Assembly (NCBI GenBank): GCA_026224805.1
Contig: JAMFRN010000074.1
Coordinates: 1-34,584, forward strand
Direction: 5' to 3'
Source: Nevskia soli
GTDB taxonomy: Bacteria; Pseudomonadota; Gammaproteobacteria; Nevskiales; Nevskiaceae
DNA length: 34,584 nucleotides
A program made the translations under genes and the position numbers. The notes under the pieces are model-generated. The model saw nothing but the letters and a program-made list of their open reading frames with translations. It was not told the origin of the DNA and did no database searches. This document shows, one piece after another, positions 1 to 29,727 of the stretch; position 1 is the stretch's first letter; each line of letters starts with the position of its first letter.

Positions 1-889
1 AGCCCTTGACGAACATCTCCGGGCGCAGCAGGAACTGCGGATTCGGCACGTTGCAGCGAATCGGCAGGGTATGCGTCGCCGGGTCGATGCTCGGGGCGAT
101 AAAGGCCACCTGCCCGGTGAAGCTCTGCCCCGGCAGGGAGCTGGACTGGAAGCTCAGCGTCTGCCCCAGCTTGAGCGCGGGATAGTCGCTGTCGTAGGTA
201 TTGGCGAACAACCATAGCGTGTCGAGGTTGGCCAGGGACATCAGCGCATCGCCGACATTGAGGTAGCCGCCCGGATCGACATTGCGCTGGGTCACCACGC
301 CGGAGATGGGGGCGCGCACCTTGAGGTATTCGTCGACCTGCCCGGTTTTGGCCAGGTTGGCGACATCTTCCGGGGAGGCGCCCAGCACCTTGAGTTTGTT
401 GGCAGCGGACTGGTAGGTGGCTTCGGCGTCGCCGCGCAGTTCGGCGTCGCTGCCATCTTTCGCAAGAGTGTCGCGGAAGCCTTTGGCGAGGATGAATTCG
501 TGCTCGGCGGAGATGTAGTCCGGGCTGTAGATTTCGGCCAGGGCGTCGCCCGCCTTTACCGACTGTCCCTCGAACACGAAGATGCGGCCCAGGCGCCCGG
601 CCACGCGCGAGGAGGCGATGCGCAGCTGCTGCTTGTCCAGCGACAGCTTGCCGGTGATGGGGATGGTGTCGGCCACCATCTGTTGCGTCGGCACGGCGGT
701 TTTGACGAAGTCGGGGTTGAAATCCTGCCCGGCTTTCGCCGGCTCCGCGTCGGCGGCTTTATCCGTGGCTTTGGCCGACGGACCGATCCCGGCGGATGCG
801 GGCGCGGACGCGCCGTGGCGTCCGGCGTAGTAGCCGGCCAGCAGGGCGAGCAGCACCAGTGGAATCAATAAGGCGAGCCGGCTTTTCAT
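1..889 (-). CDS. Efflux RND transporter periplasmic adaptor subunit (HlyD/CusB-like), C-terminus cut by window edge
   Basis: Minus-strand reading from ATG at 889: MKSRLALLIPLVLLALLAGYYAGRHGAS...VADTIPITGKLSLDKQQLRIASSRVAGRLGRIFVFEGQSVKAGDALAEIYSPDY...VRAPISGVVTQRNVDPGGYLNVGDALMSLANLDTLWLFANTYDSDYPALKLGQ; typical membrane-fusion-protein lipoyl/barrel motifs. Confidence 0.88.
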   Translation of the reverse strand, partial: MKSRLALLIPLVLLALLAGYYAGRHGASAPASAGIGPSAKATDKAADAEPAKAGQDFNPDFVKTAVPTQQMVADTIPITGKLSLDKQQLRIASSRVAGRLGRIFVFEGQSVKAGDALAEIYSPDYISAEHEFILAKGFRDTLAKDGSDAELRGDAEATYQSAANKLKVLGASPEDVANLAKTGQVDEYLKVRAPISGVVTQRNVDPGGYLNVGDALMSLANLDTLWLFANTYDSDYPALKLGQTLSFQSSSLPGQSFTGQVAFIAPSIDPATHTLPIRCNVPNPQFLLRPEMFVKG

Positions 890-890
890 G

Positions 891-2306
891 TCATTGGCTG
901 TCGGGGTCTTTGCCGATGGCGGCGGCGAGGGAGACATAAGCCTGCACGGCGGTATTCTGCGCCTGAATCAGGGTCAGTTCGGTATCGCGCAGGCCGGTTT
1001 GCGCGGTGAGCAGATCGGAGAAGCTGGTGCCGCCGTTGGAGGGGCCGTTGTTGCCATAGCCGGTGAGTGCCAGCCGATAGGCCATCTGCGCCTGCGGCAG
1101 CAGGTGTTCGCGGGTGAAGCGCAGCTGCTGCAAGGCGGTTTCCAGGCTGTGGTAGGCATTGGCCACGCCCAGATCGACTTGCTGCAGATTGGCCTGCTGT
1201 CCCGCCTGCGCCGCTTCGAGCTGCGCCTGGGCCTGGCTCAGGCCGGCTTTTTCCTTGGCAAAGCCCCAGGTCGGCAGATTGAAGCTGATGCCCAGGGAAT
1301 ACATGCGCATGGTTTGCAGCTGCACCACCGAGGGATCGGCGTAGCTGCCCGCGCTGAGCTGGAAATCCGGCCAGAACGACTTGTGCGCCAGGGCCACGCC
1401 CTTGTCGGCCGCCTCGACCTGGAACTCGCCGCCGGCGATCACCGGATTGGTCTTCTGCGCCAGCTCGATCAACTGCTCCACGGTCTGCGGCGGTAGGCGC
1501 GGGGTATCGTCCTGGTTCTGCACCTGCAACGGCGTCTGCGAGGGCTGGCCCAGCAGGGTGTTGATCTGCTCGGCCATGCTCCGGATCTGCTTGTCCAGCG
1601 CATAGCGGTCGTTCTGCAGGCTGCCGACCGCGACCTGGGCGTTGAGGAACTCGACATAGGCCGCGGCGTTGTTGGCATAGCGGACCTTGGCGATGGCCTT
1701 GATCTCCTCCAGCCTTTGCAGATCCTCGTCCATGAAATGCAGCTGGTCCTGCAGCGCCATCAACTGGTAGTAGGACAGCTTGAGCTGCGACACCAGCTGC
1801 AGCTCGAGGCTGTCGTACTGGCGCCCCACCACCTCGGCCTGGGCCCGGGCGATATCGCCCGCCAGGCTGCGCTTGCCCGGCCATAGCAGGGGCTGGGTAA
1901 AGTTGTAATAAGCGTAGAAACCGGAGTTGCGGTTGAAGTCGAAGGGGCCGCCGGTGTTGGCCTGCTCCAGCAGGCTGAACTGCGGCGCCGGCAGCGCCTC
2001 CGCCTGGGGCACCATCAGGCGCGCCGCGAGATAGGCCTGATGCGCCTGCCGCAACTGCGGATTGCCATGCCGCAGCGCGACGACCAGATCGTTCAGCGTC
2101 CAGGTACCCGCCGGCGCCGGATCAGCGGCGGCAGCCGGAGCCATTGCGGCGCACGCAAGAGCCAGCGCCGCGAACAGCGGCCTGCCGAGCGGCCTGCGGT
2201 GACGATTGCTGGATGGCGGGGACACGGGCGGAATGGAAACAGGACCGGAATCAGGATCGGGGGGCCCGCGGGGGGCAGAGACCTTCGGCGCGCAGGCTAT
2301 GCCCAA
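891..2306 (-). CDS. TolC-family outer membrane efflux protein (start codon uncertain; true start may lie inside the track ORF)
   Basis: ORF with signal peptide-like LFAALALACAAMAPAAAADP and OEP repeats; adjacent to the RND adaptor on the same strand. Confidence 0.85.
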   Translation of the reverse strand: MGIACAPKVSAPRGPPDPDSGPVSIPPVSPPSSNRHRRPLGRPLFAALALACAAMAPAAAADPAPAGTWTLNDLVVALRHGNPQLRQAHQAYLAARLMVPQAEALPAPQFSLLEQANTGGPFDFNRNSGFYAYYNFTQPLLWPGKRSLAGDIARAQAEVVGRQYDSLELQLVSQLKLSYYQLMALQDQLHFMDEDLQRLEEIKAIAKVRYANNAAAYVEFLNAQVAVGSLQNDRYALDKQIRSMAEQINTLLGQPSQTPLQVQNQDDTPRLPPQTVEQLIELAQKTNPVIAGGEFQVEAADKGVALAHKSFWPDFQLSAGSYADPSVVQLQTMRMYSLGISFNLPTWGFAKEKAGLSQAQAQLEAAQAGQQANLQQVDLGVANAYHSLETALQQLRFTREHLLPQAQMAYRLALTGYGNNGPSNGGTSFSDLLTAQTGLRDTELTLIQAQNTAVQAYVSLAAAIGKDPDSQ

Positions 2307-2364
2307 TTGCTTTCTCGAACCTTACGGCCGAGAGCCGCCGAAGGTTAAGTCAACTTATCAGTGG

Positions 2365-2406
2365 GGAGAAGCCACGCGGCGGCGGCCGATCGAAGACGAT
2401 GCGCAA
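2365..2406 (+). pseudogene. Fossil of the 5' end of the response-regulator gene at 4508 (SD, mutated start ACG, first codons)
   Basis: Gapless alignment to 4499-4540 (offset 2134), 36/42 identical by hand count, ending in a 19-bp exact match GATCGAAGACGATGCGCAA (2388-2406 and 4522-4540). Confidence 0.6.
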
Positions 2407-2493
2407 GGCGAGGACCCTGGCTTGATACCAGCACGCTTCACAAACTGGTCCTTCAGGGCCTGGCGCAGTCCGGGGAAAACGCTGCCGCAAAGG

Positions 2494-4263
2494 CTACAGA
2501 GTGGTGAAAAACAGGGCGGAACTCAGCGCCATGCCCAGCAGCAGGGCTTGCGCCAGCCGCCCGGCACGGGCGCAGGCGATGATGAAAGGCAGCAGCACCG
2601 GCAGGATGAAGCGGAAGTCGCTCTGGCAGGAAAATGGATGGGCAATGCGTGCGGCCAGCACGCTCGCCAGCCACAGCAGGCTGAGCAGGATCCAGGGCGC
2701 TTCGCGCCATACCGTCGGCGCCGACCAGCGCAACGCGGCGGCCCGCACCATCAGCAGCGCGATCAGCCACAGCAGCACCACGCCCCAGATGATGGCGATG
2801 ACGCGATGCAGCGTCCCTACGAAACTGAATTCGCCCGATAGCGCCGAGCGCAACAGGAAGTTCCAGAAGTTGGCGCGGCCGGTGGCGTCGTCGCGGGTGT
2901 CGAGCCAGGGCGTGCTGAGGAAGACCGGAATATCCAGCGGCAGGAAATAACGGAACTGGTTGGGCACGCGCAGGTTGGCGTCCAGATTGCCGATGTTGCC
3001 GATCAGCCAGTTGGAAAGCTGGCCATGGCTCCAGTAATAGAAATTGCGACCGAAGCTGAGCAGCATGCCCGTCGTCATCAACGCCGTCGCCGTGCCCGCA
3101 TCGATCCAGCGCCGCGTCTTGCGCCATCCGCCGGCGCGCAGCAGGCGCAGCGCGATCAGCGCCATCGCGGCCGCGGGCAGGGCGAAAGCAGTGCCCTTGC
3201 ACAGCAGCGCCAGGGCGATGCACGCGGCCATCGCCAGCAAATGACGCCGCCGTCCGCCGCGCCACCAGCGGAACATGAACCAGATGGCGACCGCCGCGGC
3301 AGCGTATAGCGGCGGGTCATTGCCGATACGCAGACCGTGGATGATGCCCGAAGGCCACAGCACCAGGGCCGCTGTCGCCACGCCGAGCACCAGCGGCCGG
3401 CGGCGCAGGGCCAGCCGCAGGGTCGCCATGGATGCGGCGAGGAATACCAGCCACAAGGCGAGCGCGAACGCCTGCAGCGCCTGCGCCTCGGGCAGGCCAA
3501 GCCATTGTGCCCAGCGCCAGACCAGGGCGCCGCCGATGTAGTACAGCGGCGGCTGTGCGTACTCCCAGCCCTGCCCCGGCAACGGCAGAGCCAGGTGCGT
3601 GGCGAGGTACTCGACATAGCCGAGATGGCCGCTTTCGCCAAAGCGCTTGACGTCGTAGTTGCGCCAGGTCCACGGCGTCGCCGCCCAGTAGCTGCAAAGC
3701 ACCAGCAGCGCGATGCCCAGCAGCACGGTTTGCCAGCGACGCAGCCGGAACGCCCGCACCAGGGCCAGAGCCCAGGGCAGCAAGGCCGCCGCCAGCAGCA
3801 GGCTGCGCCAGCCAGGCACCGGATCCAGGGCCAGACTGCCATTCCAGGCGTAGTTGTCGACGACGAAATCAAGTTGGTTGGCGCCGCGATGCAGCCAGGG
3901 CGACAGGTCCATGTCGAAGCCGTAGCGCCAGTCGCTCAGGCTGCCCGCCGGCACGCCTTCGAGCGGCACCGCCTGGCCGTTGATGCTCAGGCCAGTGAGC
4001 CGGTCGTCCGGTGTGATATGCCAGCGCCGCGGCGTCAGCCAGTTGACCGGCAAGCTGACGCTGAGCCGGTTGCCGTTGCTGATCTCGCTGAACAACCAGG
4101 GCATTGCAACCGCCCCCCCGCCGCGTCCGCTGGCGAGATGCTGGATGGCCGTCAGGCGCGGATAGACCAGTCCCAGCGCCAGGCTGATGCTCAGCAGGCC
4201 GACGAACGCCAGCACAATCGTGCTCGCGCCTGACAACGGCTTGATGATCTTCGCAAACGACAT
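2494..4263 (-). CDS. Polytopic membrane protein, glycosyltransferase-39-like (GT-C fold) with N-terminal extracytoplasmic domain
   Basis: ATG at 4263 (MSFAKIIKPLSGASTIVLAFVGLLSISLALGLVYPRL...); multiple TM segments; QPPLYY motif. The track ORF extension to 4593 is antisense to the response regulator and is discounted. Confidence 0.65.
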   Translation of the reverse strand: MSFAKIIKPLSGASTIVLAFVGLLSISLALGLVYPRLTAIQHLASGRGGGAVAMPWLFSEISNGNRLSVSLPVNWLTPRRWHITPDDRLTGLSINGQAVPLEGVPAGSLSDWRYGFDMDLSPWLHRGANQLDFVVDNYAWNGSLALDPVPGWRSLLLAAALLPWALALVRAFRLRRWQTVLLGIALLVLCSYWAATPWTWRNYDVKRFGESGHLGYVEYLATHLALPLPGQGWEYAQPPLYYIGGALVWRWAQWLGLPEAQALQAFALALWLVFLAASMATLRLALRRRPLVLGVATAALVLWPSGIIHGLRIGNDPPLYAAAAVAIWFMFRWWRGGRRRHLLAMAACIALALLCKGTAFALPAAAMALIALRLLRAGGWRKTRRWIDAGTATALMTTGMLLSFGRNFYYWSHGQLSNWLIGNIGNLDANLRVPNQFRYFLPLDIPVFLSTPWLDTRDDATGRANFWNFLLRSALSGEFSFVGTLHRVIAIIWGVVLLWLIALLMVRAAALRWSAPTVWREAPWILLSLLWLASVLAARIAHPFSCQSDFRFILPVLLPFIIACARAGRLAQALLLGMALSSALFFTTL

Positions 4264-4507
4264 CTGGCCCCCTGAGCTCAGCGTCAGCATACCGCTTGAG
4301 CGTGCCGGCTGGCTTGGCGGCCCAGGCGAGAACCGGCGCCATGAGCAGCAGGTCGCGGTAACTATTGCGGAATGGCGGGTACACTGGGCGGATGGCCGGA
4401 AAATCGACATCGGGGGCGCAACGAGCCCAGGCCATGCGTAATTACTTTCGCAGACACTATAGTTGGTGCCGTCCAGGGATAAGCTGGCGCACCTGCCGGG
4501 AGAACCC

Positions 4508-5185
4508 ATGCGGCTGCTGTTGATCGAAGACGATGCGCAAATCGCCGAAAGCCTGGGGCGCGCCCTGCGCCGCGGCGGCGACGTGGTCGACATCTACGGC
4601 ACGGCCCGCGACGCGGAGCAGGCGCTGCGGGCGGTCGATTACGCGCTGGTGATCCTGGACCTGGGGCTGCCCGACCGCGACGGCGGCACGCTGCTGCGGG
4701 GAATGCGCGCCCAAGACAACCATACGCCGGTGCTGGTGCTGACGGCCCGCGACGAGCTGAACGACCGCGTGCGCATGCTCGACCTCGGCGCCGACGACTA
4801 CATGGTCAAGCCGTTCGAACTGGTAGAGCTGCAGGCGCGCATCCGCGCGGTGGCGCGGCGTGCCATCGCCCGCTCCGGCGGCGACATCGGCGTCGGCGGC
4901 CTGCGCTTCGACCTGGCCGAGCGCCGCGCCTACGCCGGCGATGTGCCGCTGGAACTGTCGCCGCGCGAGCTGGGGGTGCTGGAAGTGCTGCTGCTGCGGC
5001 GCAGCCGGGTGGTGAGCAAGGCGCAGATCCAGGAGCATCTGTGCGACTGGGACGAGGCGCTGACCGACGGCGCCATCGAGCTTTACGTCCATCGCCTGCG
5101 CAAGAAGCTGGAAGGCAGCGAGGTGGAATTGCGCACCGTGCGCGGCTTCGGCTATCTGCTGCAAGCGACGCCTGGCACGGAGTAA
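4508..5185 (+). CDS. OmpR/PhoB-family response regulator
   Basis: MRLLLIEDDAQIAESL...LVILDLGLPDRDGG...LTARDELNDRVRMLDLGADDYMVKPF + winged-helix C-terminus VHRLRKKLEG..RTVRGFGYLL; GGAGAA Shine-Dalgarno before the ATG. Confidence 0.95.
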   Translation: MRLLLIEDDAQIAESLGRALRRGGDVVDIYGTARDAEQALRAVDYALVILDLGLPDRDGGTLLRGMRAQDNHTPVLVLTARDELNDRVRMLDLGADDYMVKPFELVELQARIRAVARRAIARSGGDIGVGGLRFDLAERRAYAGDVPLELSPRELGVLEVLLLRRSRVVSKAQIQEHLCDWDEALTDGAIELYVHRLRKKLEGSEVELRTVRGFGYLLQATPGTE

Positions 5186-5191
5186 ACCGTT

Positions 5192-6901
5192 TTGGCGCAA
5201 AGCTTTGCGGGTTTGCGCGGACGCCTGCTGCGGCTGCTGCTGACTCCGCTGCTGGCCCTGTTCGGCGTCAGCGGCTTCGCCTCTTATGCCCTGACCCTGC
5301 ATTACACCAACGACGTCTACGACGGCTGGCTTTACGATTCGGTCAATTCGCTGGCGCTGCTGGTGGGGCGCGGCGATCACGGCGTGATCCTGGACCTGCC
5401 GCAGCCGGCGGCGCGGCTGCTGGAATGGGACGTGGCCGATACCACCTATTACAAGGTGTCCGGCGCCCGCAGCGGGCTGATCGCCGGCAACGCCGACCTG
5501 CCCGCGCCGGGGCCGGACTTCGACACCTACCGCGACGCCCGCCTCTATGACGCGGTCATCGGCGACCGCCCGGTACGCGTTGTCGCGCTGGAGCTGCCGG
5601 CGCAGGCGCTCGGCGAAACGGTGACGGTGGAAGTGGCCGAGACCTTGAGCAAGCGCCGCTCGATGGCGCGGCAGATCCTGCTCGGGGTGCTGCTGCCGCA
5701 GCTGCTGCTGATCTGCGCGGCCGCTGCCGCCATCTGGCTCGGCATCCAGCTCGGCCTGGCGCCGCTGGCCAAGGTCGCCGCCCGGCTCGACGGGCCGGAG
5801 CCGCCGCAACCGCTGCCTGGCGCAAAGGGCCGGGCCGGGCTGCTGATGCGCGTGGTCGGCGATCCGCTGTTCGGCGGCGTGCTGGTGGCGATCGCCTTGG
5901 CGTTGCTGCTGCTGTTGCGCCAGCAGATCAACATTTCGTTCTCGCTGCTGTTCCTGAGCGCGGTGATCGCCAGCGCCTGGCTCGGCGGCAAGGTGCTGGG
6001 CTGGATCGCCGCGATCCTGTGCACGCTCGCGGTGGAGTACTTCTTCATGCGGCCCTACTACAGCCTCGGCGTGACCTACCAGGAGGCGCCGTATTTCGTC
6101 GCCTTCATGGTGTCGATGATCGCCGGAAACTGGTTCGGCATCTGGCGCAAGAACATGGACCTGACCTTGCGCCGCGCGCGGGATGAGCTGGAATCGCGCA
6201 TCCAGGCCGGCGGCATGGAGCTGGAAACTTCACAGCGGCGCTTCGTCGCCGACGCCGCCCACCAGCTGCGCACGCCGCTGACCGCGCTCAAGCTGAACAT
6301 CGAGCAGGCGATGAAGGAAGCGGAAACGGAGAGCTTGCGGCAGCCGCTGCGGGAAGCCTCGCTGGCGGCGGATCGGGTGATCCGCCTGTCCAACCAGCTG
6401 CTGCTGCTGGCGCGGACCGAGCCCAAGGCGCTGGCGGCGGTGCCGTTCGAACCCTTCGATCTGGTGGCGCTGGCCGCCGAAGTGGGCGCCGAGTGGGTGC
6501 CGCGGGCGCTGGAAAAGAATATCGACGTGACGCTGCAGGCGCCGCCGCGCCGCATCGAGCTGCGCGGCAGCCGGGTGCTGATCGCCGAGGTGTTCAACAA
6601 CCTGCTGGAAAATGCCGTCAAGTACCACCCGGGCGGCGGCAAGATCACCATTACCCTGTCCGCGCACCCCCATCCGACCCTGACGATCAGCGACGACGGG
6701 CCGGGCATTCCGGCGGCGCAGCGGGCGAACGTGCTGAAGCGCTTCTACCGCGGCGCCCGCAACAGCATCGACGGTAGCGGCCTGGGGCTGGCGATCGTGC
6801 ACGAAATCGTCAACGCGCACGGCGGCAGCCTGTTGCTTGGCGAAGGACTGGACGGACGCGGCTGCGGCGTACGCGTCGATTTTCCCGTGATGGCCGGCTG
6901 A
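5192..6901 (+). CDS. Sensor histidine kinase with KdpD-type DUF4118 four-TM module
   Basis: H-box FVADAAHQLRTPLTALKLNIEQA, ATPase motifs NLLENAVKYHP / SDDGPGIP / GSGLGLAIV; mid-protein LLLLRQQINISFSLLFLSAVIASAWLGGKVLGWIAAILCTLAVEYFFMRPYYSLGV resembles DUF4118. Confidence 0.93.
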   Translation: MAQSFAGLRGRLLRLLLTPLLALFGVSGFASYALTLHYTNDVYDGWLYDSVNSLALLVGRGDHGVILDLPQPAARLLEWDVADTTYYKVSGARSGLIAGNADLPAPGPDFDTYRDARLYDAVIGDRPVRVVALELPAQALGETVTVEVAETLSKRRSMARQILLGVLLPQLLLICAAAAAIWLGIQLGLAPLAKVAARLDGPEPPQPLPGAKGRAGLLMRVVGDPLFGGVLVAIALALLLLLRQQINISFSLLFLSAVIASAWLGGKVLGWIAAILCTLAVEYFFMRPYYSLGVTYQEAPYFVAFMVSMIAGNWFGIWRKNMDLTLRRARDELESRIQAGGMELETSQRRFVADAAHQLRTPLTALKLNIEQAMKEAETESLRQPLREASLAADRVIRLSNQLLLLARTEPKALAAVPFEPFDLVALAAEVGAEWVPRALEKNIDVTLQAPPRRIELRGSRVLIAEVFNNLLENAVKYHPGGGKITITLSAHPHPTLTISDDGPGIPAAQRANVLKRFYRGARNSIDGSGLGLAIVHEIVNAHGGSLLLGEGLDGRGCGVRVDFPVMAG

Positions 6902-6919
6902 ACCGCTGCGGATGCCGGG

Positions 6920-7885
6920 CTAGCCGCCCGCCCGCAGCCGCTCCTCGATGAACCTGCTCCACACTTCGTCCGGCTGCCATACCGCGAGCAGGTCGCGCTC
7001 CGCCACTTCGCGGGCCACGCCCAGGCGCAGCACCCGGTAGAGAAAGACGAAAGCGGAGACCCGCTTGTTGACGGCGCAATGGACGAAGACGCGGCGGCCG
7101 GCCTCGGCCTGCATCAGCGCGCCGAAGCGCGCGAAGTCATCCGCGGTCGGCGCTTCCCACACCACCGGCAGGTGGTGGTAGCGCAGGCCCTGCGCCTCCA
7201 CCGCGGCGGCTTCATCGGCCACGGCCCATTGCGAATCGGCCGGCAGCAGGTTGATCACGGTCTGGTAGCCGGCGCTGCGTACCGCCCAGAACTGCTCGGC
7301 GCTGGGCTGGCCGGCGGTGGCCAGCCGGTCGTCGATGACACGCAGTTGCGGGATCGCCTTGACCGCCTCGTTCTCGAATGGCTGGGGCGTGAGGCCGCGG
7401 CGGATCATCCAGTCGCGCAGGGCCAGGCCGGTGGCGGCCGGCCAGGGACGCAGCTGCTCCGGCGCCACTTTCTTGTATTCCACCAGTTCCTCGCCCAGCA
7501 CGATCTCGCCGGCGGCGACGACGTGATAGGCGATGATGATCTGGTTCATGCGCTGGAACGGATAGTGGCCGATGAATTCGGCGACGCGGCCTTTCAGCCC
7601 CAGCTCCTCCTCCACCTCGCGCAGCACGCCGGAGGCGGGATCGGGATCGTCCTTCTCGAGGAAGCCGGTAATGAGGGCGAACATCTTCGGCGGCCACATG
7701 CGGTTGCGCGCCAGGATCACCTGGCCCTCGTGCTCGACCACGGCAGCCACCACCGGCACCGGGTTGTCCCAGTGCACGAAGCCACAGTTGCTATCCGGAC
7801 AGCGCAGGCGCGGCGGCGGCTGGTCAACCTCGCCCATGGCGAGCGGCTTGGTGCAGCGCGGGCAGAATTTGAAGGTCTGATTCAC
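6920..7885 (-). CDS. Zinc-ribbon NUDIX hydrolase fused to a protein-tyrosine-phosphatase-like domain
   Basis: GTG start at 7885; CPRC..CPDSNC ribbon; NUDIX box GFLEKDDPDPASGVLREVEEELGL; C-terminal RVIDDRLATAGQPSAEQFWAVRSAGYQTVINLLP...VFVHCAVNKRVSAF. Confidence 0.85.
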   Translation of the reverse strand: MNQTFKFCPRCTKPLAMGEVDQPPPRLRCPDSNCGFVHWDNPVPVVAAVVEHEGQVILARNRMWPPKMFALITGFLEKDDPDPASGVLREVEEELGLKGRVAEFIGHYPFQRMNQIIIAYHVVAAGEIVLGEELVEYKKVAPEQLRPWPAATGLALRDWMIRRGLTPQPFENEAVKAIPQLRVIDDRLATAGQPSAEQFWAVRSAGYQTVINLLPADSQWAVADEAAAVEAQGLRYHHLPVVWEAPTADDFARFGALMQAEAGRRVFVHCAVNKRVSAFVFLYRVLRLGVAREVAERDLLAVWQPDEVWSRFIEERLRAGG

Positions 7886-8331
7886 GTTTCGTCTCCACCA
7901 AGTGCTACGAAGGTGCCGCTGTGGCGCACCACTTCCCGGCCGGCGCTGCGCAGCGTGCTGTGGATGGTGATACGGGCCCGCCGGCGCTTGCGCAGGGTGT
8001 CGAGGAAGCGCGTCCATTCCGCCGCCGGCAGGCTGCTCGCCGAAAAAAACTCTTCGGCCACCGGCTCGAGAAACTCGCACTCGCTTTTCTGCACCACGAT
8101 GCGCGCCTCCAGCCCTTCCTGGCGCAGGGACTGTTGCAGCAAGGCCCAGCCGCTGACGATGCCGAGGGTGGCGAGACTGCCGCCGAAAGCGGTGTCGCGG
8201 TGGTTGCGGTTGGGTGACAGCGGCGCCACCAGCTCGATGGCGCCGTCGCCGCTGTGCAGCACGCGCAGCTGCATCGCGGCGGTGAGCGGAATATGGCGAT
8301 GCAGGTATTCGGTCAGGGCTTCGGGTGACAT
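7882..8331 (-). CDS. YiiD C-terminal-like thioesterase (hot-dog fold)
   Basis: APLSPNRNHRDTAFGGSLATLGIVSGWALL; 4-bp overlap with the downstream NUDIX gene suggests translational coupling. Confidence 0.75.
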   Translation of the reverse strand: MSPEALTEYLHRHIPLTAAMQLRVLHSGDGAIELVAPLSPNRNHRDTAFGGSLATLGIVSGWALLQQSLRQEGLEARIVVQKSECEFLEPVAEEFFSASSLPAAEWTRFLDTLRKRRRARITIHSTLRSAGREVVRHSGTFVALGGDET

Positions 8332-8525
8332 GCGCGGGGGGCTGAACCGCCTCCGGGATGGAGGGCTGCGCGCACCTTACCGCAGCATGCCGCCAGCGGC
8401 CAGCACAGAGCCCATGGGCAACCGGGGGGCCGGCGATCTGCTCCGAACGCAGGAGGCTGGCGCCGGCGCTGGCTGCAATGATGCCGCCGCCGGACACGAT
8501 CCGGAACCGATCAGGGAGCCGGCTC

Positions 8526-9437
8526 ATGCCACAGAAGTGGACACTCGCCGAGATGCCGCGGCTGGACGACAAGCTGGCCGTGGTGACCGGGGCCAATCGC
8601 GGCCTGGGGCTGGAAATCTGCGTCGGCCTGGCCGGCGCCGGCGCCACCGTGGTGATGGCCTGCCGCGACGCGCGGCGGGCCGAGACGGCGGTGCAGGAGA
8701 TCCGGCGGCGGGTGCCGCAGGCGCGGCTGGAAGTGATGCCGCTGGACCTAGCCGACCTGTCCTCGGTGCGGCGTTTTGCGCAGGACTTCAACACGCGCTT
8801 CAGCCGCCTGGATCTGCTGATCAACAACGGCAGCGCCATCATGGTGCCGCTGCAGAAGACCCGCGACGGCTACGAGATGCATATCGGCACCAATCATCTC
8901 GGCCACTTCGTACTGACCGGCCTGCTGCTGGACCGGCTGGAGGCCACGCCCGGCTCGCGGGTGGTGAATACCTCCAGCATGGCGCACCGCCTGACCAAGG
9001 GCCTCAAGCTCGACGACCTGCACTTCGAGCGCCGGCCCTACAAGGAAATGGATGCCTATGGCCAGAGCAAGCTGGCCAGCCTGATCTATACCTTCGAGCT
9101 TGACCGGCGCCTGCGTCAGGCCGGCTCCGGCGTCATCGCCGCCGCCGCGCATCCGGGCTGGTCCAACACCAATCCGGACCAGGGGACCGCGCTGATGCGC
9201 TGGGCCAATTCATTCATGGCGCAGCCGGCGGCGATGGGCGCCCTGCCTTCGCTCTACGCCGCCACGGCGCCGGAGGTGCGGGGCGGCGACTACCTGGGCC
9301 CGGGCGGCTTCAAGGAGCTGCGCGGCCACCCGGCCAAGGTCGGCAGCAGCGACGAGGCGCGGGACCCGGAACTGGCCGCCCGGCTTTGGGCGCGGTCTGA
9401 ACTGCTGACGGGCGCCAAGTACCTGTCAGGTAGCTGA
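8526..9437 (+). CDS. Short-chain dehydrogenase/reductase
   Basis: TGANRGLGLEIC nucleotide-binding motif, NNGSA, YGQSKLASL catalytic YxxxK. Confidence 0.92.
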   Translation: MPQKWTLAEMPRLDDKLAVVTGANRGLGLEICVGLAGAGATVVMACRDARRAETAVQEIRRRVPQARLEVMPLDLADLSSVRRFAQDFNTRFSRLDLLINNGSAIMVPLQKTRDGYEMHIGTNHLGHFVLTGLLLDRLEATPGSRVVNTSSMAHRLTKGLKLDDLHFERRPYKEMDAYGQSKLASLIYTFELDRRLRQAGSGVIAAAAHPGWSNTNPDQGTALMRWANSFMAQPAAMGALPSLYAATAPEVRGGDYLGPGGFKELRGHPAKVGSSDEARDPELAARLWARSELLTGAKYLSGS

Positions 9438-9470
9438 CGCCGGGGCGGGCTTGGCTCATGATGGGGTTCG

Positions 9471-9487
9471 GGATCCGGTCCGGATCC
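9471..9487. promoter_or_regulatory. 17-bp palindrome GGATCCGG-T-CCGGATCC upstream of the cyclase gene (candidate operator)
   Basis: Perfect 8-bp arms around one base; immediately precedes GGGAGGAG SD and TTG start at 9506. Confidence 0.5.
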
Positions 9488-9505
9488 TGAGGGAGGAGAC
9501 CCCGC

Positions 9506-12500
9506 TTGCCAAGCTGCCATAACTGCGACGCCGCCAATCCGGACGGCGCCAGATTCTGCAACCAGTGCGGCACCCGCCTGGGCAACGAAGCCTCCGCCGA
9601 GGCGCCGCGCCGCGTCTATACGCCGCGGCATCTGGTGGAGCGGGTGCTCAACAGCCGAGCCGCCCTGATCGGCGAGCGCAAGCGGGTCACCGTGCTGTTC
9701 GTCGACATCAAGGGCTCCACCCGGCTGGCCGAGCAGGCCGGTGCCGAGGCCTGGCACCTGATCCTGGACCGCTACTTCACCCTGCTCAGCGGCGCGGTGC
9801 ACCGCTACGAGGGCACCGTCAACCAGTACACCGGTGACGGCATCATGGCCCTGTTCGGCGCGCCGCTGGCGCACGAGGACCATGCGGTGCGCGCCTGCTT
9901 CGCCGCGCTGGAGATGCAGCGCCAGGTGCGGCTTTACGCCGACGAGCTGCGCCTGTCCTCCGGGCTGAACCTGTCGATCCGCGTCGGCCTCAATACCGGC
10001 GAAGTGATCGTCGGCGCCATCGGCGACGACCTGCGCATGGATTACACCGCGCAGGGCCTGACGGTGAACCTGGCCGCGCGCATGGAGCAGATCTGCGAGC
10101 CGGGGCGCATCTACGCCACGCGCAATACGGCGGCGCTGGCCGAGGGCTATTTCCGCCTGCGCGACCTGGGCGAGATGGCGGTGGCCGGCATGGATCTGCC
10201 GCTGCGGGTCTACGAGGTGGAAGGCGAAGGCGTCATCAAAACCCGGCTGGAACGCGGCCTGGCGCGCGGCGCGGCGTGCTTCGTCGGGCGCGAGGCCGAG
10301 CGCCTGCAACTGCGCGCGGCGCTGGACGAGGCCCTGGCCGGACGCGGCCAGGTGGTGGCGGTGGTAGGCGAGGCCGGCATCGGCAAGAGCCGGCTGTGCC
10401 ATGAGTTCGCGCAGGACTGCGAACGCGGCGGCATCGCCGTGCACCGCGCTACCGGTGTGCCTTATGCGGCGGCGATGCCGTTCCACCCGGTGCAGACGCT
10501 GACGCGCCGGCGGCTGTGCCTGCCCGACGAGGGCGGCGCGGCGGAACTCAAGCGCCTCGCCGCCGGCGCCCTGCTGCTGTTCGACCCGGCCTCGGTGGCG
10601 CTGCTGCCGCGGCTGCTGGAATTTCTCGGCAGCGGCGAGGCTGCCGCGGTCGGCGCCGGCGCCACCGCCGACCGCAGGCAGCTGTTCGAGCTGCTGGCGC
10701 GGCTGCTGCCGCGCGCGGATGCGCCGCAGGTCCTGCTGGTGGAGGACCTGCATTTCGCCGATTCCGGCAGCGAGGCCTTCCTGGAGATGCTGATCGCGCA
10801 GGTGGCCGGCACCTCGACCCTGCTGCTGCTCAACTTCCGCCCGGACTACAGCGCGCCCTGGCTGGAGCGGCGGCCGCACCAGCGCATCGGCATCGGCGCG
10901 CTGGACCAGGCGCAGATCGAGGCGGTGGCAAGCGATCTGCTGGGCGCGCATGCCAGCGTGGCCGCGCTGCCGCAGGAGCTGAGCCGGCGCGCCGGCGGTA
11001 ATCCCTTCTATGTCGAGGAAGCGGTGCAGGCACTGAGCGAGACCGGGCATCTGCAAGGCTCGCACAGCGCCTACACACTGGCGCGCGCCATCGGGCGCTG
11101 GCCGATCCCCGACACGGTGCATGCCCTGGTGGCCGCGCGCGTCGACCGCCTCGGCGAAGCCGACAAGAACCTGCTGCAATCCGCCGCCATCATCGGCCTG
11201 GAGTTCCCGCAGCAGGTGCTGGCGCGCCTGGCCGATCTGCCGGCGGCGCAATGCGCCGAAGGCCTCAACACCCTGCACAGCCGCGGCTTCGTGCAGCCCA
11301 AGGCCGATGCGATCGGCATCTATGCCTTCAGCCATCCGCTGAGCCAGGACGTGGTTTACCGCGCCCAGCTGGAAACGCAGCGCAGCGCGGCGCACCGCCG
11401 CCTGGCGGAGCTGCTGGAGGGGGAACACCCGCTGACCGCGCCGCCCGACGACGACGCCGTGGCCATTGCCCATCACTGGCACCGCGCCGGCGATTGGGTG
11501 CGGGCGGCGGAATGGAACCTGCGCGCGGCCAGCTGGTCGTCGGCGCACGGCGCCAATGCCTCGCTGGCGCAGTTCCGCCTGGCGCAGAAGAATCTGCAGC
11601 GGGCGCCGCGCAATGCCGCCACCGACCGCCTGCGCATCCAGTCGCTGGCCGGGCTGGTGCGCATGGCGCAGTTCACCGACATCGCGCCGGAAGAAACCGA
11701 GGCCGCCTATGTCGAAGCGCGCGACCTGGCCGAGGCCAACCGCGACACCGCATCCCTGGCCGAGCTGCTGATTTCCTACAGCGCCGAGCAGCTGCACCGC
11801 GGCGACGCGCGCGAGGCGGTGCGCCTGGTCGGTGAGGCAGTGCGCCTGGCGGTGGACAGCGGCGCGCTGGAGCTGATCAACCGCTTCCGCTTGCAGCTGC
11901 TGCTGGTGCACAGCACCGCCGGCTATCCGCGCGAGGGCGCCGAGCTGGTCAGCGAAGCCGGCGGCGACGGCTGGCTGACCGAGCCGCTGGGCCCGGAGAA
12001 CTTCAATTCGCGCGCCTTCCACGCGCTGATCCTGGGCTGGCTCGGTCGCCTCGACCAGGCCCATGCGCAGCTGCGCGCGGCGCTGGCCTATGCCGAGCAG
12101 GAAGGGCGCGCCACCAGCTGGATGCACACCAACTGGATCGACCTGGCCGGCTTCAGCGGCGACCACAGCGGCGTGCTGCAGCAGGGCCAGCTGGCGCTGC
12201 AACGCGCCGAGATCGGTGGCAGCTCCTATTTTCGCGCCATCGCCCTGCGCGGCCTGGGCCTGGCGCATGTGCTGCTCGGCGACGGCGCGGCGGCGGTGCG
12301 CGTGCTGGAGCCGGCGCTACTGCTGGTGGCGCGCGGCGCCAATGCCCACCAGTTCCAGGCCCAGACCCTGGCAACCCTGGCCAAGGCCTATGTGCAGCTC
12401 GGCGCCTACGACCGCGCCCACGCCACCGCCAACGCCGCCATCGCCAGCGCGCAAAGCTCGCACTCGCGGGTGTGGGAGCTGACCTGCTGGGTCGCTTACT

Positions 12501-12736
12501 TCGAACTGCCGGCGCAGGGCCCCTGGAGCGGCCGCGTGGCGGAAGGCCTGCAGCGCATGGGGCAGCTGATCGACGCCACCGGCGCCGAGGTGCAGCGCCC
12601 CTGGTGGTGGCTGGCGCAGGCGCGCTGGGCCACCACCCCGGCCGAAGCCGCCGGCTATCGGGCGCGGGCGCTGGAGAGCTTCGCCAGCATCGGCGCGCAT
12701 GGGCATTTACGCAGGCTGGCGGCGCAGGCAGCCTAG
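9506..12736 (+). CDS. Zinc ribbon - class III adenylate/guanylate cyclase - AAA/STAND ATPase - TPR regulatory protein
   Basis: CHNCDAANPDGARFCNQCG; VTVLFVDIKGSTRL...YTGDGIMALFGAPLAHEDHA...TVNLAARMEQ; Walker A VGEAGIGKSRL; Walker B VLLVEDLHFAD; helical repeat C-terminus. TTG start. Confidence 0.9.
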   Translation: MPSCHNCDAANPDGARFCNQCGTRLGNEASAEAPRRVYTPRHLVERVLNSRAALIGERKRVTVLFVDIKGSTRLAEQAGAEAWHLILDRYFTLLSGAVHRYEGTVNQYTGDGIMALFGAPLAHEDHAVRACFAALEMQRQVRLYADELRLSSGLNLSIRVGLNTGEVIVGAIGDDLRMDYTAQGLTVNLAARMEQICEPGRIYATRNTAALAEGYFRLRDLGEMAVAGMDLPLRVYEVEGEGVIKTRLERGLARGAACFVGREAERLQLRAALDEALAGRGQVVAVVGEAGIGKSRLCHEFAQDCERGGIAVHRATGVPYAAAMPFHPVQTLTRRRLCLPDEGGAAELKRLAAGALLLFDPASVALLPRLLEFLGSGEAAAVGAGATADRRQLFELLARLLPRADAPQVLLVEDLHFADSGSEAFLEMLIAQVAGTSTLLLLNFRPDYSAPWLERRPHQRIGIGALDQAQIEAVASDLLGAHASVAALPQELSRRAGGNPFYVEEAVQALSETGHLQGSHSAYTLARAIGRWPIPDTVHALVAARVDRLGEADKNLLQSAAIIGLEFPQQVLARLADLPAAQCAEGLNTLHSRGFVQPKADAIGIYAFSHPLSQDVVYRAQLETQRSAAHRRLAELLEGEHPLTAPPDDDAVAIAHHWHRAGDWVRAAEWNLRAASWSSAHGANASLAQFRLAQKNLQRAPRNAATDRLRIQSLAGLVRMAQFTDIAPEETEAAYVEARDLAEANRDTASLAELLISYSAEQLHRGDAREAVRLVGEAVRLAVDSGALELINRFRLQLLLVHSTAGYPREGAELVSEAGGDGWLTEPLGPENFNSRAFHALILGWLGRLDQAHAQLRAALAYAEQEGRATSWMHTNWIDLAGFSGDHSGVLQQGQLALQRAEIGGSSYFRAIALRGLGLAHVLLGDGAAAVRVLEPALLLVARGANAHQFQAQTLATLAKAYVQLGAYDRAHATANAAIASAQSSHSRVWELTCWVAYFELPAQGPWSGRVAEGLQRMGQLIDATGAEVQRPWWWLAQARWATTPAEAAGYRARALESFASIGAHGHLRRLAAQAA

Positions 12737-15644: not shown

Positions 15645-15727
15645 CGTTCGCAACTTTTGTATGCGCTGAAACTTTTGCGTACGCGCTTGCACACGACCAT
15701 TGGAGCCGCAGATTGAAAGTGCGGTTC

Positions 15728-16360
15728 CGCCTTGAAGGCGGGTATCTTTTCTTTGTCTCGCCAAAGAAAAGATACGAAAAGAAAGGCGACCCGATGTCTG
15801 CACTTCTCGCTCGCCGCCGATTTCACCCACAGGCCATGAATGGCCTGTGGGTGAAATCGGCGGCATCCCTGCCTTGACCCGCGTCTACGCGCGGACCTGA
15901 TCACCGCGAGCTGTGATGCTCGGCGCAGCCACACGGGGGAGAACGTCCACAGCCACATCAAAAGCAGAATCAAAAGTCTCGCGACACACTGCCTTTAGTC
16001 CCCTCTCCCCTTGGGGGAGAGGGTTAGGATGAGGGGTGGTTGCGGCGCGTAAGTCCAGAACTGGATTCCCGCCTTCGCGGGAATGACGCTGGTGAGGTTT
16101 TGCTTTTGATGTTGCCGTTGCTGTGCTTTGCCTTTGACGTTCCTCCCCGTGTGGCTGCGCCGAGCATCGCAAAGACGGAGTGGAATAGCCGCGCGCAGAC
16201 GCGGGCGAGGCAGGGATGGCCTGTCTAAAAAGCCCGCTCCGGCTGCGAAGCGCAGGGAACCGATCAATCACCGCAGGTGATTGATCGGCGCAGACATCGA
16301 GGCGGCGTTTCTTGGTTACTTCTTTCCGCTGTAGGAAAGAAGTAACTCGCCGAAGGCGAA
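15728..16360. repeat. Large composite inverted-repeat element (two ~250-bp arms each with two hairpins, 99-bp repeat nested in centre)
   Basis: See findings; includes hairpins 15742-15775, 15813-15864, 16260-16288, 16315-16346. Confidence 0.75.
15991..16089. repeat. 99-bp interspersed repeat, copy 1 (CCCCTCTCCCC..GGGGGAGAGGG + CTGGATTCCCGCCTTCGCGGGAATGACGC)
   Basis: 90/99 identity by hand alignment to 18414-18512. Confidence 0.85.
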
Positions 16361-16591
16361 AAACTTCGCTAAGGCGTCAGGAGGATCCGGCACGCGCGCA
16401 AGCGCACGCTGCGCTGTTTCAGAGTCAGAAAAAGGCCGCGATTGATGCGCTTCGCTGCGCTCAGCACATCCTACGCAGCTCAGAATGACAAGGGAGAGGT
16501 TAGTGCCGGTCCCTCGATACGCCCGCCAAGGCAGGCACTCGGGACGAACGGAGTTCATTGTTGGTCTTGTAAAAAGCGCCCCTTGCCCCAA

Positions 16592-16618
16592 CCCTCTCCC
16601 CACTTCGTGGGGAGAGGG
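16592..16618. repeat. Hairpin CCCTCTCCCC-ACTTCGT-GGGGAGAGGG upstream of the ABC operon
   Basis: 10-bp perfect arms; same core as the CCCTCTCC family. Confidence 0.7.
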
Positions 16619-16691
16619 AGAGAAAAATGATTACGGCTAACCCTGCCCCACAATACGCTACGCTTGTCCCCCCGACCCGAGCCCAGACCGC

Positions 16692-24127: not shown

Positions 24128-25816
24128 CTACTTCTTCGACCCTTCCGCTTTCTTCAGGTCCGCCGCTTCCAGCCGCCGCGCGATGACCCATTGCTGCAGG
24201 ATGTTGGTCATGTTGCTGACCAGCCAGTACAGCACCAGGCCGACCGGGAAGAACAGGAACAGGCCGGTGAGGAAGATCGGCATGATGTTCATCATCTTGG
24301 CCTGGGTCGGGTCCATCGTCGCCGACTGGCCTGACAGGCGCTGCTGCACCCACATGCTGATGCCGTACAGCACTGGCAGGACGTAGTACGGATCGGGGCC
24401 GGACAGATCCTGCATCCACAGCACGAACGGCGCCTGGCGCAACTCGACGCTCTGGTTCAGCACCCAGTACAGGGCGAAGAACACCGGCATCTGCACCAGC
24501 AGCGGCCAGCAGCCGGCGAGCGGGTTGAAGCCTTCCTTCTTGTACAGCTCCATCATCGCCTTGTTGAGGCGCTCGCGGTCGTCGCCGAAGCGCTCGCGCA
24601 GTTCCTTGATGCGCGGGCTGAACCGCTTCATCTTCGCAGTGGAGCGGTACTGCGCCTCGGACAGCTTGAAGAACAGCGCCTTCACCGTGAGGGTCAGCAG
24701 GATGATCGACCAGCCCCAGTTGCCGGTGAGTGTGTGGTAGTGCGACAGCACCCAGAACAGCGGCTTGGCCACCGGCGCCAGAATGCCGTAGTCCTCGACC
24801 AGCTCGAACTTGTGCGCGACGCCTTCCAGGGTGTTGCCCTGGGAGATCGGGCCGATGTAGAGCTTGGCGTCGTAGCTGTGCTCGGCGCCGTCGGCGACCG
24901 GCGTGAGATCGCCCAGGTACTGCGCCTGGTACAGCGCGCCGCCGGAGACCTTCTTGCCACTCAGGTCCGCGCCCTGATCCTGCGGCGGAATGATGGCGGT
25001 GACGAAGTAATGCTGCACCAGGGCGATCCAGCCGCCGGTCTGCTTGACCTCGTAGGCTTCCTTGTCGAGATCCTTGAAGGCCTTCTTCTTGTACGCGCAG
25101 TCGTCGCTCTTTTCCTTCTGCACGCAGACGCCGATGCCGAAAAAGCCGGCGGCGGTGTGCAGGAAGCCGGGGCCCGCCTGGGTCGGCGGCGGCGTGCGCT
25201 GGTAGCGCAGGAAGGCGGCGGCCTGCAGCGGGCTGCCGCTATGGTTGGCCAGGGTCTGGGTCAGGCCGATCTCGTAGCTGCCGCGCTTGAAATGGAACAC
25301 CTTGCGCACGGTGTAGCCGGCGGCATCGGCGAACTCCAGCGGCACGTCGAGCGTATCGGCGCCATCGGCCAGCTTGTACTCGGCCTGCGGCGAGGTGAAG
25401 CTGGACTGGCCGCTGGTGAGCGGCTTCTCGGTGCCGGCCAGGCCGCTCTGGAAGGTGAAGATCTGACCGTCGCGGTCATCGAGCAGGTCGAGCTTCTGCT
25501 CGGGGTGCTTCTTGTCGGCGATGAAATCGCTCAGCTCGACCCGGCGCACTTCGCCGCCGGCCAGGGCGATATCCACCACCATGCGATCGGTCTGCACCTG
25601 CACCCGCTGCTGGGTGGGGCCGGCGCTTCCCGGCGCGATGTCGGTGGCGCCAGCCGCGGCGGCGCTGACCGGTACTCCGTTCGCGTCCAGCGTGGTATTG
25701 CTCGACGACGCCTGCAGCTGCGGTGGCTTGTTCGGGTAGTCGGTCTGCCAGGCCTGGTACAGCAGGAACAGGGACAGGCCGATCAACGCGATCAGCACCA
25801 TGCGGCGATTTTCCAT
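24128..25816 (-). CDS. yidC: Membrane protein insertase YidC
   Basis: MENRRMVLIALIGLSLFLLYQAWQ...GCWPLLVQMPVFFALYWVLNQSVELRQAPF... Confidence 0.98.
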   Translation of the reverse strand: MENRRMVLIALIGLSLFLLYQAWQTDYPNKPPQLQASSSNTTLDANGVPVSAAAAGATDIAPGSAGPTQQRVQVQTDRMVVDIALAGGEVRRVELSDFIADKKHPEQKLDLLDDRDGQIFTFQSGLAGTEKPLTSGQSSFTSPQAEYKLADGADTLDVPLEFADAAGYTVRKVFHFKRGSYEIGLTQTLANHSGSPLQAAAFLRYQRTPPPTQAGPGFLHTAAGFFGIGVCVQKEKSDDCAYKKKAFKDLDKEAYEVKQTGGWIALVQHYFVTAIIPPQDQGADLSGKKVSGGALYQAQYLGDLTPVADGAEHSYDAKLYIGPISQGNTLEGVAHKFELVEDYGILAPVAKPLFWVLSHYHTLTGNWGWSIILLTLTVKALFFKLSEAQYRSTAKMKRFSPRIKELRERFGDDRERLNKAMMELYKKEGFNPLAGCWPLLVQMPVFFALYWVLNQSVELRQAPFVLWMQDLSGPDPYYVLPVLYGISMWVQQRLSGQSATMDPTQAKMMNIMPIFLTGLFLFFPVGLVLYWLVSNMTNILQQWVIARRLEAADLKKAEGSKK

Positions 25817-25825
25817 GGGAAGCTT

Positions 25826-26077
25826 CTACCTGGGCTTGCAGACGGTGGAGCAGTGGGTGTGCAGGTGTTCCGGAACCGGGTCGTGGCCGCCAGCGTTCAG
25901 CGGATGGCAGCGCACAATGCGGCGCAAAGCTAACCAGCCGCCTCTGACAGGGCCATGACGGTCGATGGCCTCGGCGGCGTATTGGGAACAGGAAGGGTAA
26001 AAACGGCAGCGCGGCCCGAGCAACGGGCTTATGAAGCGCTGGTACGCGCGGATGAATCCGATGAGTAGCCGCCGCAT
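25826..26077 (-). CDS. yidD: Membrane protein insertion efficiency factor YidD
   Basis: [42 protein letters not shown]...[18 protein letters not shown]. Confidence 0.95.
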
Positions 26078-26427
26078 CGATCGATCACCTTGAGCCAGAT
26101 CTCCGCCAGAGTCGCGCGCAGCTGCTCGTTGTTCATGCCATGCAGGCCCGGCATGCCGTAGAACACCAGGTCCACCGGGGGCAACCGCTGCTGATTGTGC
26201 CGGAAGTTTTCGCGGATCAGCCGCTTGATGCGGTTGCGGTCCACCGCTCGCGGCGCGGCTTTGCGTGCGATGGCCAGCCCGAGCCGCGGATGGCCTGTGC
26301 CATTGTCCGGCCGGCATACCGCGGCCAGCGGCGTCCGCGTGATCCTGAATCCCTTGGCGAAAGCCTGCTTGAATTCGGCAGGCTGGCGGATGCGGACGCG
26401 CCTTTGCAGCTGCGCGCCCCTATGCAT
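26029..26427 (-). CDS. rnpA: Ribonuclease P protein component
   Basis: [18 protein letters not shown]...[29 protein letters not shown]; overlaps yidD by ~49 bp. Confidence 0.93.
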
Positions 26428-26482
26428 CGGCTCCAACTCAATCCCGAACCCAATCGTGGGCTCAACCTCGAGCTCAAGCGGC

Positions 26483-26617
26483 TTACGGGATGAGACGGGC
26501 GCGGCCCTTGGCGCGGCGACGCGACAGCACCAGACGACCACCGACAGTGGCCATACGGGCACGGAAACCGTGGGTGCGCTTGCGCCGCAGGGTATGCGGC
26601 TGGAACGTACGTTTCAT
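26483..26617 (-). CDS. rpmH: 50S ribosomal protein L34 (not in ORF track)
   Basis: [44 protein letters not shown], 44 aa. Confidence 0.97.
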
Positions 26618-26743
26618 GACTGCTTGCTCGAGCGGGACAAAAGAGGTCTATTTTATAGGTCTAACGCGCCATCAAGCAACAGCGGATTCCCGGCTGGTCT
26701 TGGAACCACTCTTGTTCATCGTTGTAACTCCTACATTTTAACC

Positions 26744-26752
26744 TGTGGATAA
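26744..26752 (-). promoter_or_regulatory. Consensus DnaA box TTATCCACA upstream of dnaA
   Basis: TGTGGATAA on + strand in the rpmH-dnaA intergenic region. Confidence 0.75.
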
Positions 26753-26798
26753 GTCAGCGGCTAACAGCTAGACTCTTCGTCCAAAAAGCGAATGAAAC

Positions 26799-28151
26799 AT
26801 GGACGGGCGGGGCATGCTGAGAGAGGACCTTTGGGATCGGTGCGTCGAGCGCCTCGAAGCGGAACTTCCCGGCAAGGAGATTGGCACCTGGATCAGGCCG
26901 CTGCGCGCCGTGGTGTCGGCCGACCAGGTGACGCTACTGGCGCCCAACCGCGTGGTGATGGAGCGTGTGCGCACCGACTTCCTGCAGAAGATCCAGCGCG
27001 CGGTGTCGAGCCTTGCCGCCTATGACCTCCACGTCAACATTGCGGTGGGCAGCGGCGCGGAACCGCGGCCCGCGGCATCTGGCAGCGCCAGCGGCGCGGC
27101 GCCGGCGGAAGCGGACGAGTATTCACCCTTCGTCAAGGGTCGCCTCGATCCGCGCTACACACTGCAGACGTTCATCGAAGGCAAGTCCAACTCCCAGGCG
27201 CGCGCCGCCGGCCAGCATGTGGCGAGCAGCCCCGGCAATGTCTACAACCCGCTGCTCATTTACGGCGAGTCCGGCCTGGGCAAGACCCATCTGATGCACG
27301 GCATCGGCAACGCCATCTCGGCGGGGCGGGAGAATGCGCGCATCGTCTATGTTGGCGCCGAGCAGTGGTTCAACCAGATGGTGTCGGCGATCCGTTTCGG
27401 CCGCCAGGCCGAGTTCAAGAATTTCTATCGCTCGGTCGATGCGCTGCTCATCGATGACATCCATTTCCTTGCAGGCAAAGAGCATTCGCAGGAAGAGTTC
27501 TTCCACACCTTCAACGCGCTGATCGACGGCCGCAAGCAGATCGTGCTGACCTGCGACCGCTATCCGCGCGAGCTCGACGCGCTCGACGAGCGCCTCAAGT
27601 CGCGTTTCACCTGGGGCCTGTCGGTGCCGATCGAGCCGCCAGAGCTGGAAACGCGCGTGGCGATCCTGCTGGCAAAGGCCGACACGCTCGGCATCCGCAT
27701 GCCCGACGATGTGGCGGCGCTGGTGGCGCAGCGCATCCGCTCCAACGTGCGTGAGCTGGAAGGCGCATTGCACCGCCTCAACGCCTCGGCGCGGCTGACC
27801 GGCACGCCGATCACCACCGAGTTCGCGCGCAGCTGCCTGAAGGACATGTTCGCGTCCTACGACCGCGCGGTGACACTGGAGAACATCAAGCGCACCGTCG
27901 CCGGCTACTACAACATCCGCCTGACCGACCTCAGCTCGGTGCGCCGCACGCGCACCTTGGCACGGCCGCGGCAGATGGCGATGTCGCTGGCCAAGGAGCT
28001 GACACAGCACAGCTATCCGGAAATCGGCGCCGCTTTCGGCAAGGACCACACCACCGTGCTGCACGCCTGCCGCAAGATGGTGGAGCTGAAACGGGACGAC
28101 GAACGCCTGCGCGAGGACTACGAAAACCTGCTGCGCATGCTGACCAATTAA
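26799..28151 (+). CDS. dnaA: Chromosomal replication initiator DnaA
   Basis: LLIYGESGLGKTHLMHGIGN; LLIDDIHFLAGKE; C-terminal RPRQMAMSLAKELTQHSYPEIGAAFGKDHTTVLHACRK. Confidence 0.99.
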   Translation: MDGRGMLREDLWDRCVERLEAELPGKEIGTWIRPLRAVVSADQVTLLAPNRVVMERVRTDFLQKIQRAVSSLAAYDLHVNIAVGSGAEPRPAASGSASGAAPAEADEYSPFVKGRLDPRYTLQTFIEGKSNSQARAAGQHVASSPGNVYNPLLIYGESGLGKTHLMHGIGNAISAGRENARIVYVGAEQWFNQMVSAIRFGRQAEFKNFYRSVDALLIDDIHFLAGKEHSQEEFFHTFNALIDGRKQIVLTCDRYPRELDALDERLKSRFTWGLSVPIEPPELETRVAILLAKADTLGIRMPDDVAALVAQRIRSNVRELEGALHRLNASARLTGTPITTEFARSCLKDMFASYDRAVTLENIKRTVAGYYNIRLTDLSSVRRTRTLARPRQMAMSLAKELTQHSYPEIGAAFGKDHTTVLHACRKMVELKRDDERLREDYENLLRMLTN

Positions 28152-28432
28152 TGACCTGTGCGCGGGCTTGCAAAGCTGGGTACGGAGGCTGGAATTGCCT
28201 GTGTATAATCCGGCGGATAAGCCTGAATATCTTTTTGTGCACAGCTTGCTAGATGCTAACCGGGCCTCGCACAGGTCCTGAATTCAGGCAAAAAGATAGA
28301 GCAAACTATTGAAAACGTTAGGATTTTAAGTTTTATCCAGCGTTTTATAGCCACACTATTAATACAGCTGTCTTTTATATTTAAAACCATATTTATCTAT
28401 AGTCCACCTGCCCAAGACACTGAACTCGCTCC
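28152..28432. other. Candidate oriC/DUE: AT-rich dnaA-dnaN intergenic region
   Basis: Strongly AT-rich block ~28290-28410; DnaA-box-like TTATCCAGC near 28333 and TGTGTATAA near 28200; 12-bp palindrome CCTGAATTCAGG (28277-28288); TATCTTTTTG (28228-28237) inverted with CAAAAAGATA (28289-28298). Confidence 0.55.
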
Positions 28433-29533: not shown

Positions 29534-29569
29534 GGGCTGACCTGCATTTCAAACTCAATTGACCTCATC

Positions 29570-29636
29570 GTAGGGCGGCCTGTGGCCGCGGGCTGTTCCC
29601 GCGCTCCGCAAAGCCGGCGGCCACAGGCCGCCCTAC
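29570..29636. repeat. REP/BIME-like inverted repeat, family 1, copy 2 (dnaN-recF intergenic)
   Basis: GTAGGGCGGCCTGTGGCCGC ... GCGGCCACAGGCCGCCCTAC. Confidence 0.9.
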
Positions 29637-29727
29637 AAATACTTCGGCATCGAGCTTCATCCAGCGCCCCCTGGTTAAACCCCGGGGGCGTTGTCGTTTC
29701 CATTTCCGCGTTAACGCTGATCGCGCC

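Follow-up and report, generated by a model that had tools for sequence, protein, structure and literature searches.

Two diverged copies of a divergent efflux-regulator promoter region, with reciprocal dead gene starts, in a Nevskia soli contig

A single divergent promoter region, once shared by an efflux operon and a two-component system, survives as two diverged copies in contig JAMFRN010000074.1 of Nevskia soli (assembly GCA_026224805.1). We use "the window" for the whole stretch of DNA that was analysed, 34,584 nucleotides, which is the entire contig (G000:C196) of a fragmented, 84% complete, metagenome-type assembly. The copies, at 2134-2421 and 4304-4557, are 67% identical. The left copy carries the live start of an outer-membrane efflux gene (OMF) and the dead start of a response regulator (RR), and the right copy carries a dead OMF start and the live RR. 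The homology is colinear across both flanking gene starts and ends in truncated gene copies at the junctions, as in the remnant of a tandem duplication. The copies, their stubs, the gene orders in relatives, and the conservation and half loss of a putative regulatory box are direct observations. Tandem duplication followed by partial deletion, with the promoter split in two and the box kept on the left, is in our judgement quite probably the best explanation for them; the order of events, binding by the RR and the effects on expression are what we infer.

Read from left to right, the locus comprises a truncated efflux periplasmic adaptor gene (MFP; 2..937, minus strand), the OMF (891..2225, minus strand), a glycosyltransferase-like membrane gene (2494..4263, minus strand), the RR (4508..5185, plus strand) and a sensor histidine kinase (HK; 5192..6901, plus strand). 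The most informative relative is Nevskia sp. isolate RYN_593 (record JAQGNS010000491.1, hereafter G006), a metagenome-assembled genome of the same genus. The adaptor, an ORF cut by the contig start and open at that end, is 65% identical to the G006 adaptor, which scores above the cut-off for TIGR01730. The OMF is intact, matches PF02321 (E 1e-40) and shares about 82-85% of its amino acids with its G006 counterpart. The glycosyltransferase-like gene, intact and starting at an ATG at 4263 or 4290, has 79% amino acid identity to that of G006; against the PMT_2 (GT39-like) Pfam model the window and G006 proteins score 20.7 and 23.1 bits, below the gathering score of 26.1 bits, and a PDB sequence search returned no solved relative. 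Of 58 family genomes, 4 contain relatives of it, and all four belong to this genus. The RR is intact and of the OmpR/PhoB type, with PF00072 (82.7 bits) and PF00486 (Trans_reg_C winged helix, 63 bits) both above cut-off, and is 94-95% identical to its orthologues in G006 and in a further relative, G001. The HK carries 2CSK_N, HisKA and HATPase_c domains. The dN/dS ratios (NG86) are 0.24 for the OMF, 0.22 for the glycosyltransferase and 0.08 for the RR; judged by their sequences, all three genes are alive and under purifying selection. An Rfam scan of the window gave zero matches, and a scan for sigma-70 promoters and terminators gave none above shuffles.

Farther along the window, yidC (minus strand) and dnaA, dnaN, a recF-like gene and gyrB (plus strand) are clustered at 24128-33288, suggesting that the window probably lies near the chromosome replication origin. 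At 9290-12736 two ORFs, of 992 and 1076 amino acids, overlap in antisense, and the 992-residue one has no Pfam match.

A gapped, lenient alignment of 2134-2421 with 4304-4557 scored 72; 500 shuffles averaged 16 and reached at most 28. An earlier sequence-only reading had matched 2365-2406 to the SD and first codons of the regulator, with the ATG of the fossil changed to ACG, and had traced weaker similarity upstream. The match is real: the longest family returned mechanically by a repeat finder is a gapless 73-nt pair, 2334-2406 and 4468-4540, 73% identical, whose last 19 bases are identical and fall within RR codons 6-11. The ACG was found where it had been reported, at 2374-2376. The similarity upstream of the 42-bp core scored 46, whereas 1000 shuffles gave at most 25 and random window segments at most 34.5, and it extends further than had been claimed. 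The homology also enters the OMF coding start, where 2134-2225 aligned with 4304-4384 scored 29.5, against a null maximum of 18.5 (2000 shuffles plus 1000 background segments). The duplication remnant is thereby confirmed and is larger than first reported. For the strictly non-coding part (2226-2372 versus 4385-4507) the score was 20.0, where 2000 shuffles averaged 9.8 and reached at most 21.0, a modest result when taken alone; the case for duplication rests on the colinear whole and on the coding stubs at both ends.

The same stubs bear on the idea that these are unrelated promoters, alike because one regulator binds both. The two regions do have one half-site of the putative box in common, and both flank genes of one system, but homology that continues through coding starts at either end, in the 19-base identity and the OMF stub, goes beyond what a binding site can explain, and the shared box is gone from one copy. 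We find this idea hardly credible.

The RR stub in the left copy (2374..2421, plus strand) reads ACG CGG CGG CGG CCG ATC GAA GAC GAT GCG CAA ... and aligns with the RR start: the start codon is gone (ATG to ACG), the conserved LLL that follows has become RRP, and IEDDAQ is kept. Between this stub and the stop of the glycosyltransferase lie 72 bp (2422..2493) without a convincing match; a search of 31 genomes and of all loci returned short chance matches only. The OMF signal-peptide stub in the right copy (4304..4384, minus strand), with its GTG at 4384, reads VYPPFRNSYRDLLLMAPVLAWAAKPAG and corresponds to the OMF start VSPPSSNRHRRPLGRPLFAALALACAAMAPAA. It is fused to what remains of an RND-glycosyltransferase linker (4264..4303, minus strand), which is near-identical to the G006 linker CTCAAGCGGTATGCTG..GGGGGCCAGATG; in G006 that linker separates the RND stop from the glycosyltransferase. 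In G006 (L048, around 7508) the OMF starts with ATG; the two window copies have ATT or ATC at the corresponding codon, and the GTG three codons downstream, at 2225, is the likely OMF start in the window. The earlier placement of the glycosyltransferase between two copies of the intergenic region thus stands, whereas the notion of a one-sided fossil does not, since the OMF stub makes the fossils reciprocal.

The state of the stubs also speaks to the possibility of an assembly chimera, which a fragmented assembly of the metagenome type might invite. A chimera would join living sequences, but the two stubs show decay, and the shared 19-mer is not where the junctions fall: they lie beyond it. An artefact of this kind is accordingly a very remote prospect.

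The G006 contig carries, in order, the glycosyltransferase, RND, adaptor and OMF genes, all on the minus strand, followed across a single intergenic region by the RR (plus strand) and HK. Three blocks of it correspond to the window in changed order: G006 5305-7606 to window 7-2326, 180-1967 to 2507-4300, and 7682-8991 to 4495-5780. Each is 79-81% identical, and this similarity among blocks fits one vertical history. The OMF and RR are directly divergent across one intergenic region in three congeners, G006, G008 and G011, which bears out the earlier proposal that the efflux operon and the two-component system were once divergent neighbours. G011 has this divergence and lacks the glycosyltransferase; in G008 the start of that gene is seen at a contig end. 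In G001 the RR-HK pair is present and the efflux operon is absent at the locus (L052, G001:C300); its RR is 95% identical to that of the window, and the gene beside the pair is one that we take, from reading its translation, to be pyruvate dehydrogenase E1-like (aceE). The split arrangement was seen in only one genome among those examined.

The glycosyltransferase is the last gene of the efflux operon in G006, and this weighs on the possibility that a mobile element or foreign DNA carried it in between OMF and RR, duplicating the target. Such an insertion would account for its position exactly between the copies. Against it, the duplicated stretch is about 250-290 bp long with gene starts at both ends, the gene comes with its native RND linker, and no transposase was noticed among the annotated ORFs around it, a subset of which was scanned. 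We regard insertion as very unlikely. As the gene was already the operon's final one in G006, it is, on comparative grounds, an original part of the efflux operon and not an outside gene.

A non-coding segment of the window, 15660-16630, matches sequence downstream of the G006 glycosyltransferase and near the end of the G001 contig that bears the HK. It includes a GGTTACTTTTCTTTGGGCG-type inverted repeat and resembles a family of interspersed repeats in the genus.

Duplication and partial deletion would account for the locus as follows. The ancestral order would have been that of Nevskia sp. RYN_593, glycosyltransferase-RND-adaptor-OMF, divergent from RR-HK over one intergenic region. A tandem duplication would have copied the operon, the intergenic region and the first ~16 RR codons beside the original. 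The copy adjoining the real RR would then have lost the RND, the adaptor and all of the OMF from about codon 28 onward, leaving the glycosyltransferase behind an OMF-start stub and each surviving promoter region with the dead start of the gene it had lost.

The timing of the event is suggested by the OMF start, where the two window copies score 29.5 against each other and the right copy scores only 15.5 against G006, favouring an event after the split from G006. A three-way alignment of the intergenic regions (left, right and G006) gave site patterns of 41/35/35, nearly a star, and identities of 67, 64 and 65%. These comparisons are also the ones that address whether the left efflux segment arose by duplication in place or came in from a relative through recombination. 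Gene order alone cannot separate the two histories, and the near-star pattern is compatible with import, but the equal identity of all three segments to G006 and the closer resemblance of the two window copies at the OMF start argue against it. We consider import unlikely.

If the duplication happened in place, an RND gene should lie left of the window, perhaps together with another glycosyltransferase copy or what is left of one. The contig begins inside the adaptor gene, and these predicted genes fall beyond the assembled sequence; the rest of the assembly, which is 84% complete, did not yield another copy of RND and glycosyltransferase, the operon genes still to be accounted for. A single RND fragment matched, on contig C154. 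It was examined as a candidate for the absent left part, but with 89% identity to the paralogous operon of G001 and only 81% to G006 it belongs to the paralogous operon. That second efflux operon of the same genome is split over contigs (G000:C209:15748-17438, L058, and G000:C154:1-616, L066) and has an OMF about 70% identical to the one described here. C154 also bears a further RR (54%) that has no box.

The putative box, CTTWC-N6-CTTWC, was first suggested by a CTTTC-N6-CTTAC direct repeat in an alignment of relatives. It was scored as CTTW[CA] half-sites with a period of 11 within 300 bp upstream of the RR, on the RR-coding strand. A perfect half-site pair was found on that one strand upstream of the RR in 20 of 24 relatives, a set in which some loci are closely related to each other and a few had given the motif idea, compared with 3 of 400 random 300-mers. 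In another set, which shares some members with the first, the box preceded 9/9 RRs of at least 50% identity, 1/15 at 45-50% and 1/54 below that. The regulator subfamily with the candidate box occurs in Nevskiales relatives and several Rhodocyclales-type genomes. Because the box occurs upstream of the RR both where the divergent neighbour is the efflux operon and where it is another gene, it probably serves autoregulation of the RR as well as the pump. Genome-wide there were 7 matches, against 9 for a reversed control; with no such excess, the motif by itself is not enough to define a regulon. The promoters of the paralogous operon (C209 and relatives) lack a perfect box.

The left copy of the promoter region holds a perfect match to the box, CTTTC-N6-CTTAC (2310..2325, plus strand), the sole perfect match in the window. 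In the right copy the corresponding sequence is CTTTC-N6-ACTAT (4445..4460, plus strand), with the first half-site kept and the second lost, and no other box scoring above 7/10 lies within 300 bp before the window RR. The box has been lost as well in G001, where the RR is likewise away from the pump. The right promoter, which would serve the regulator and the glycosyltransferase, has thus probably lost the candidate box, and only the left copy, beside the pump, is likely to keep the regulator's binding site.

These observations do not favour the proposal of the sequence-only reading that both transcription units are kept under the same regulator, as the only conserved regulator-associated box is intact on the left and half lost on the right. 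The right copy might still bind the regulator, and both units might still be co-regulated, through the half-site that remains: in Klebsiella PmrA, the isolated DNA-binding domain prefers the first half-site, binding it much more strongly than the second (PMC3973317). Without its second half-site, and with no substitute box near the RR, the right copy nevertheless makes this doubtful. Under duplication and partial deletion, a single two-way promoter would have become two. The left one, with the intact box, would drive the efflux operon, still under the regulator; the right one, with half a box, would drive RR-HK and, from the former OMF promoter, the glycosyltransferase, over which the regulator's control, including autoregulation, may be weakened or lost. 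More tentatively, and at somewhat less than even odds in our estimation, the shared promoter may have been split into two specialised ones, the RR losing its autoregulatory box, being freed from feedback and gaining the glycosyltransferase as its divergent partner, with the same loss occurring independently in G001.

The locus is of interest as a readable intermediate of operon rewiring for which the undisturbed, pre-event order survives in a relative; the genes that each promoter copy once served can be told from the reciprocal dead starts. It offers a natural experiment on the fate of feedback once a regulator is separated from its target and, for a little-studied regulator subfamily, a binding-site prediction that can be tested, CTTWC-N6-CTTWC.

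Among known systems, PmrA/BasR provides the window RR with its best NCBIfam and PDB sequence matches, although the score against the PmrA/BasR equivalog model NF007928 is 212.9 bits, below the cut-off of 330 bits. The candidate box resembles the PmrA box, CTTAAG-N5-xTTAAT, in being a head-to-tail direct repeat with a period of 11 (PMC3973317), but its half-sites are CTTWC instead of the CTTAA type. Unlike PmrA/BasR, the RR here neighbours a CusA/CzcA-type efflux operon. That assignment rests on the orthologous RND of G006, which scores above the TIGR00914 cut-off for CusA/CzcA (HME) heavy-metal efflux proteins (881.7 versus 701.45), the window's own RND lying beyond the contig end. As in CusA/CzcA operons, an adaptor and an OMF are present in G006 and the regulator genes are divergent; unlike them, the G006 operon ends with a glycosyltransferase-like gene, which in the window adjoins the regulator.

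Operons in general can change their gene order through tandem duplication and later partial deletion of the copies. The window shares with this mechanism the colinear copies and the partial genes at the junctions, and differs in having reciprocal gene starts around a two-way promoter, which make the order of events readable, and a regulatory box kept in one copy. It is a real and well-preserved duplication remnant that instructively illustrates a known type of event; it does not represent a new type of system.
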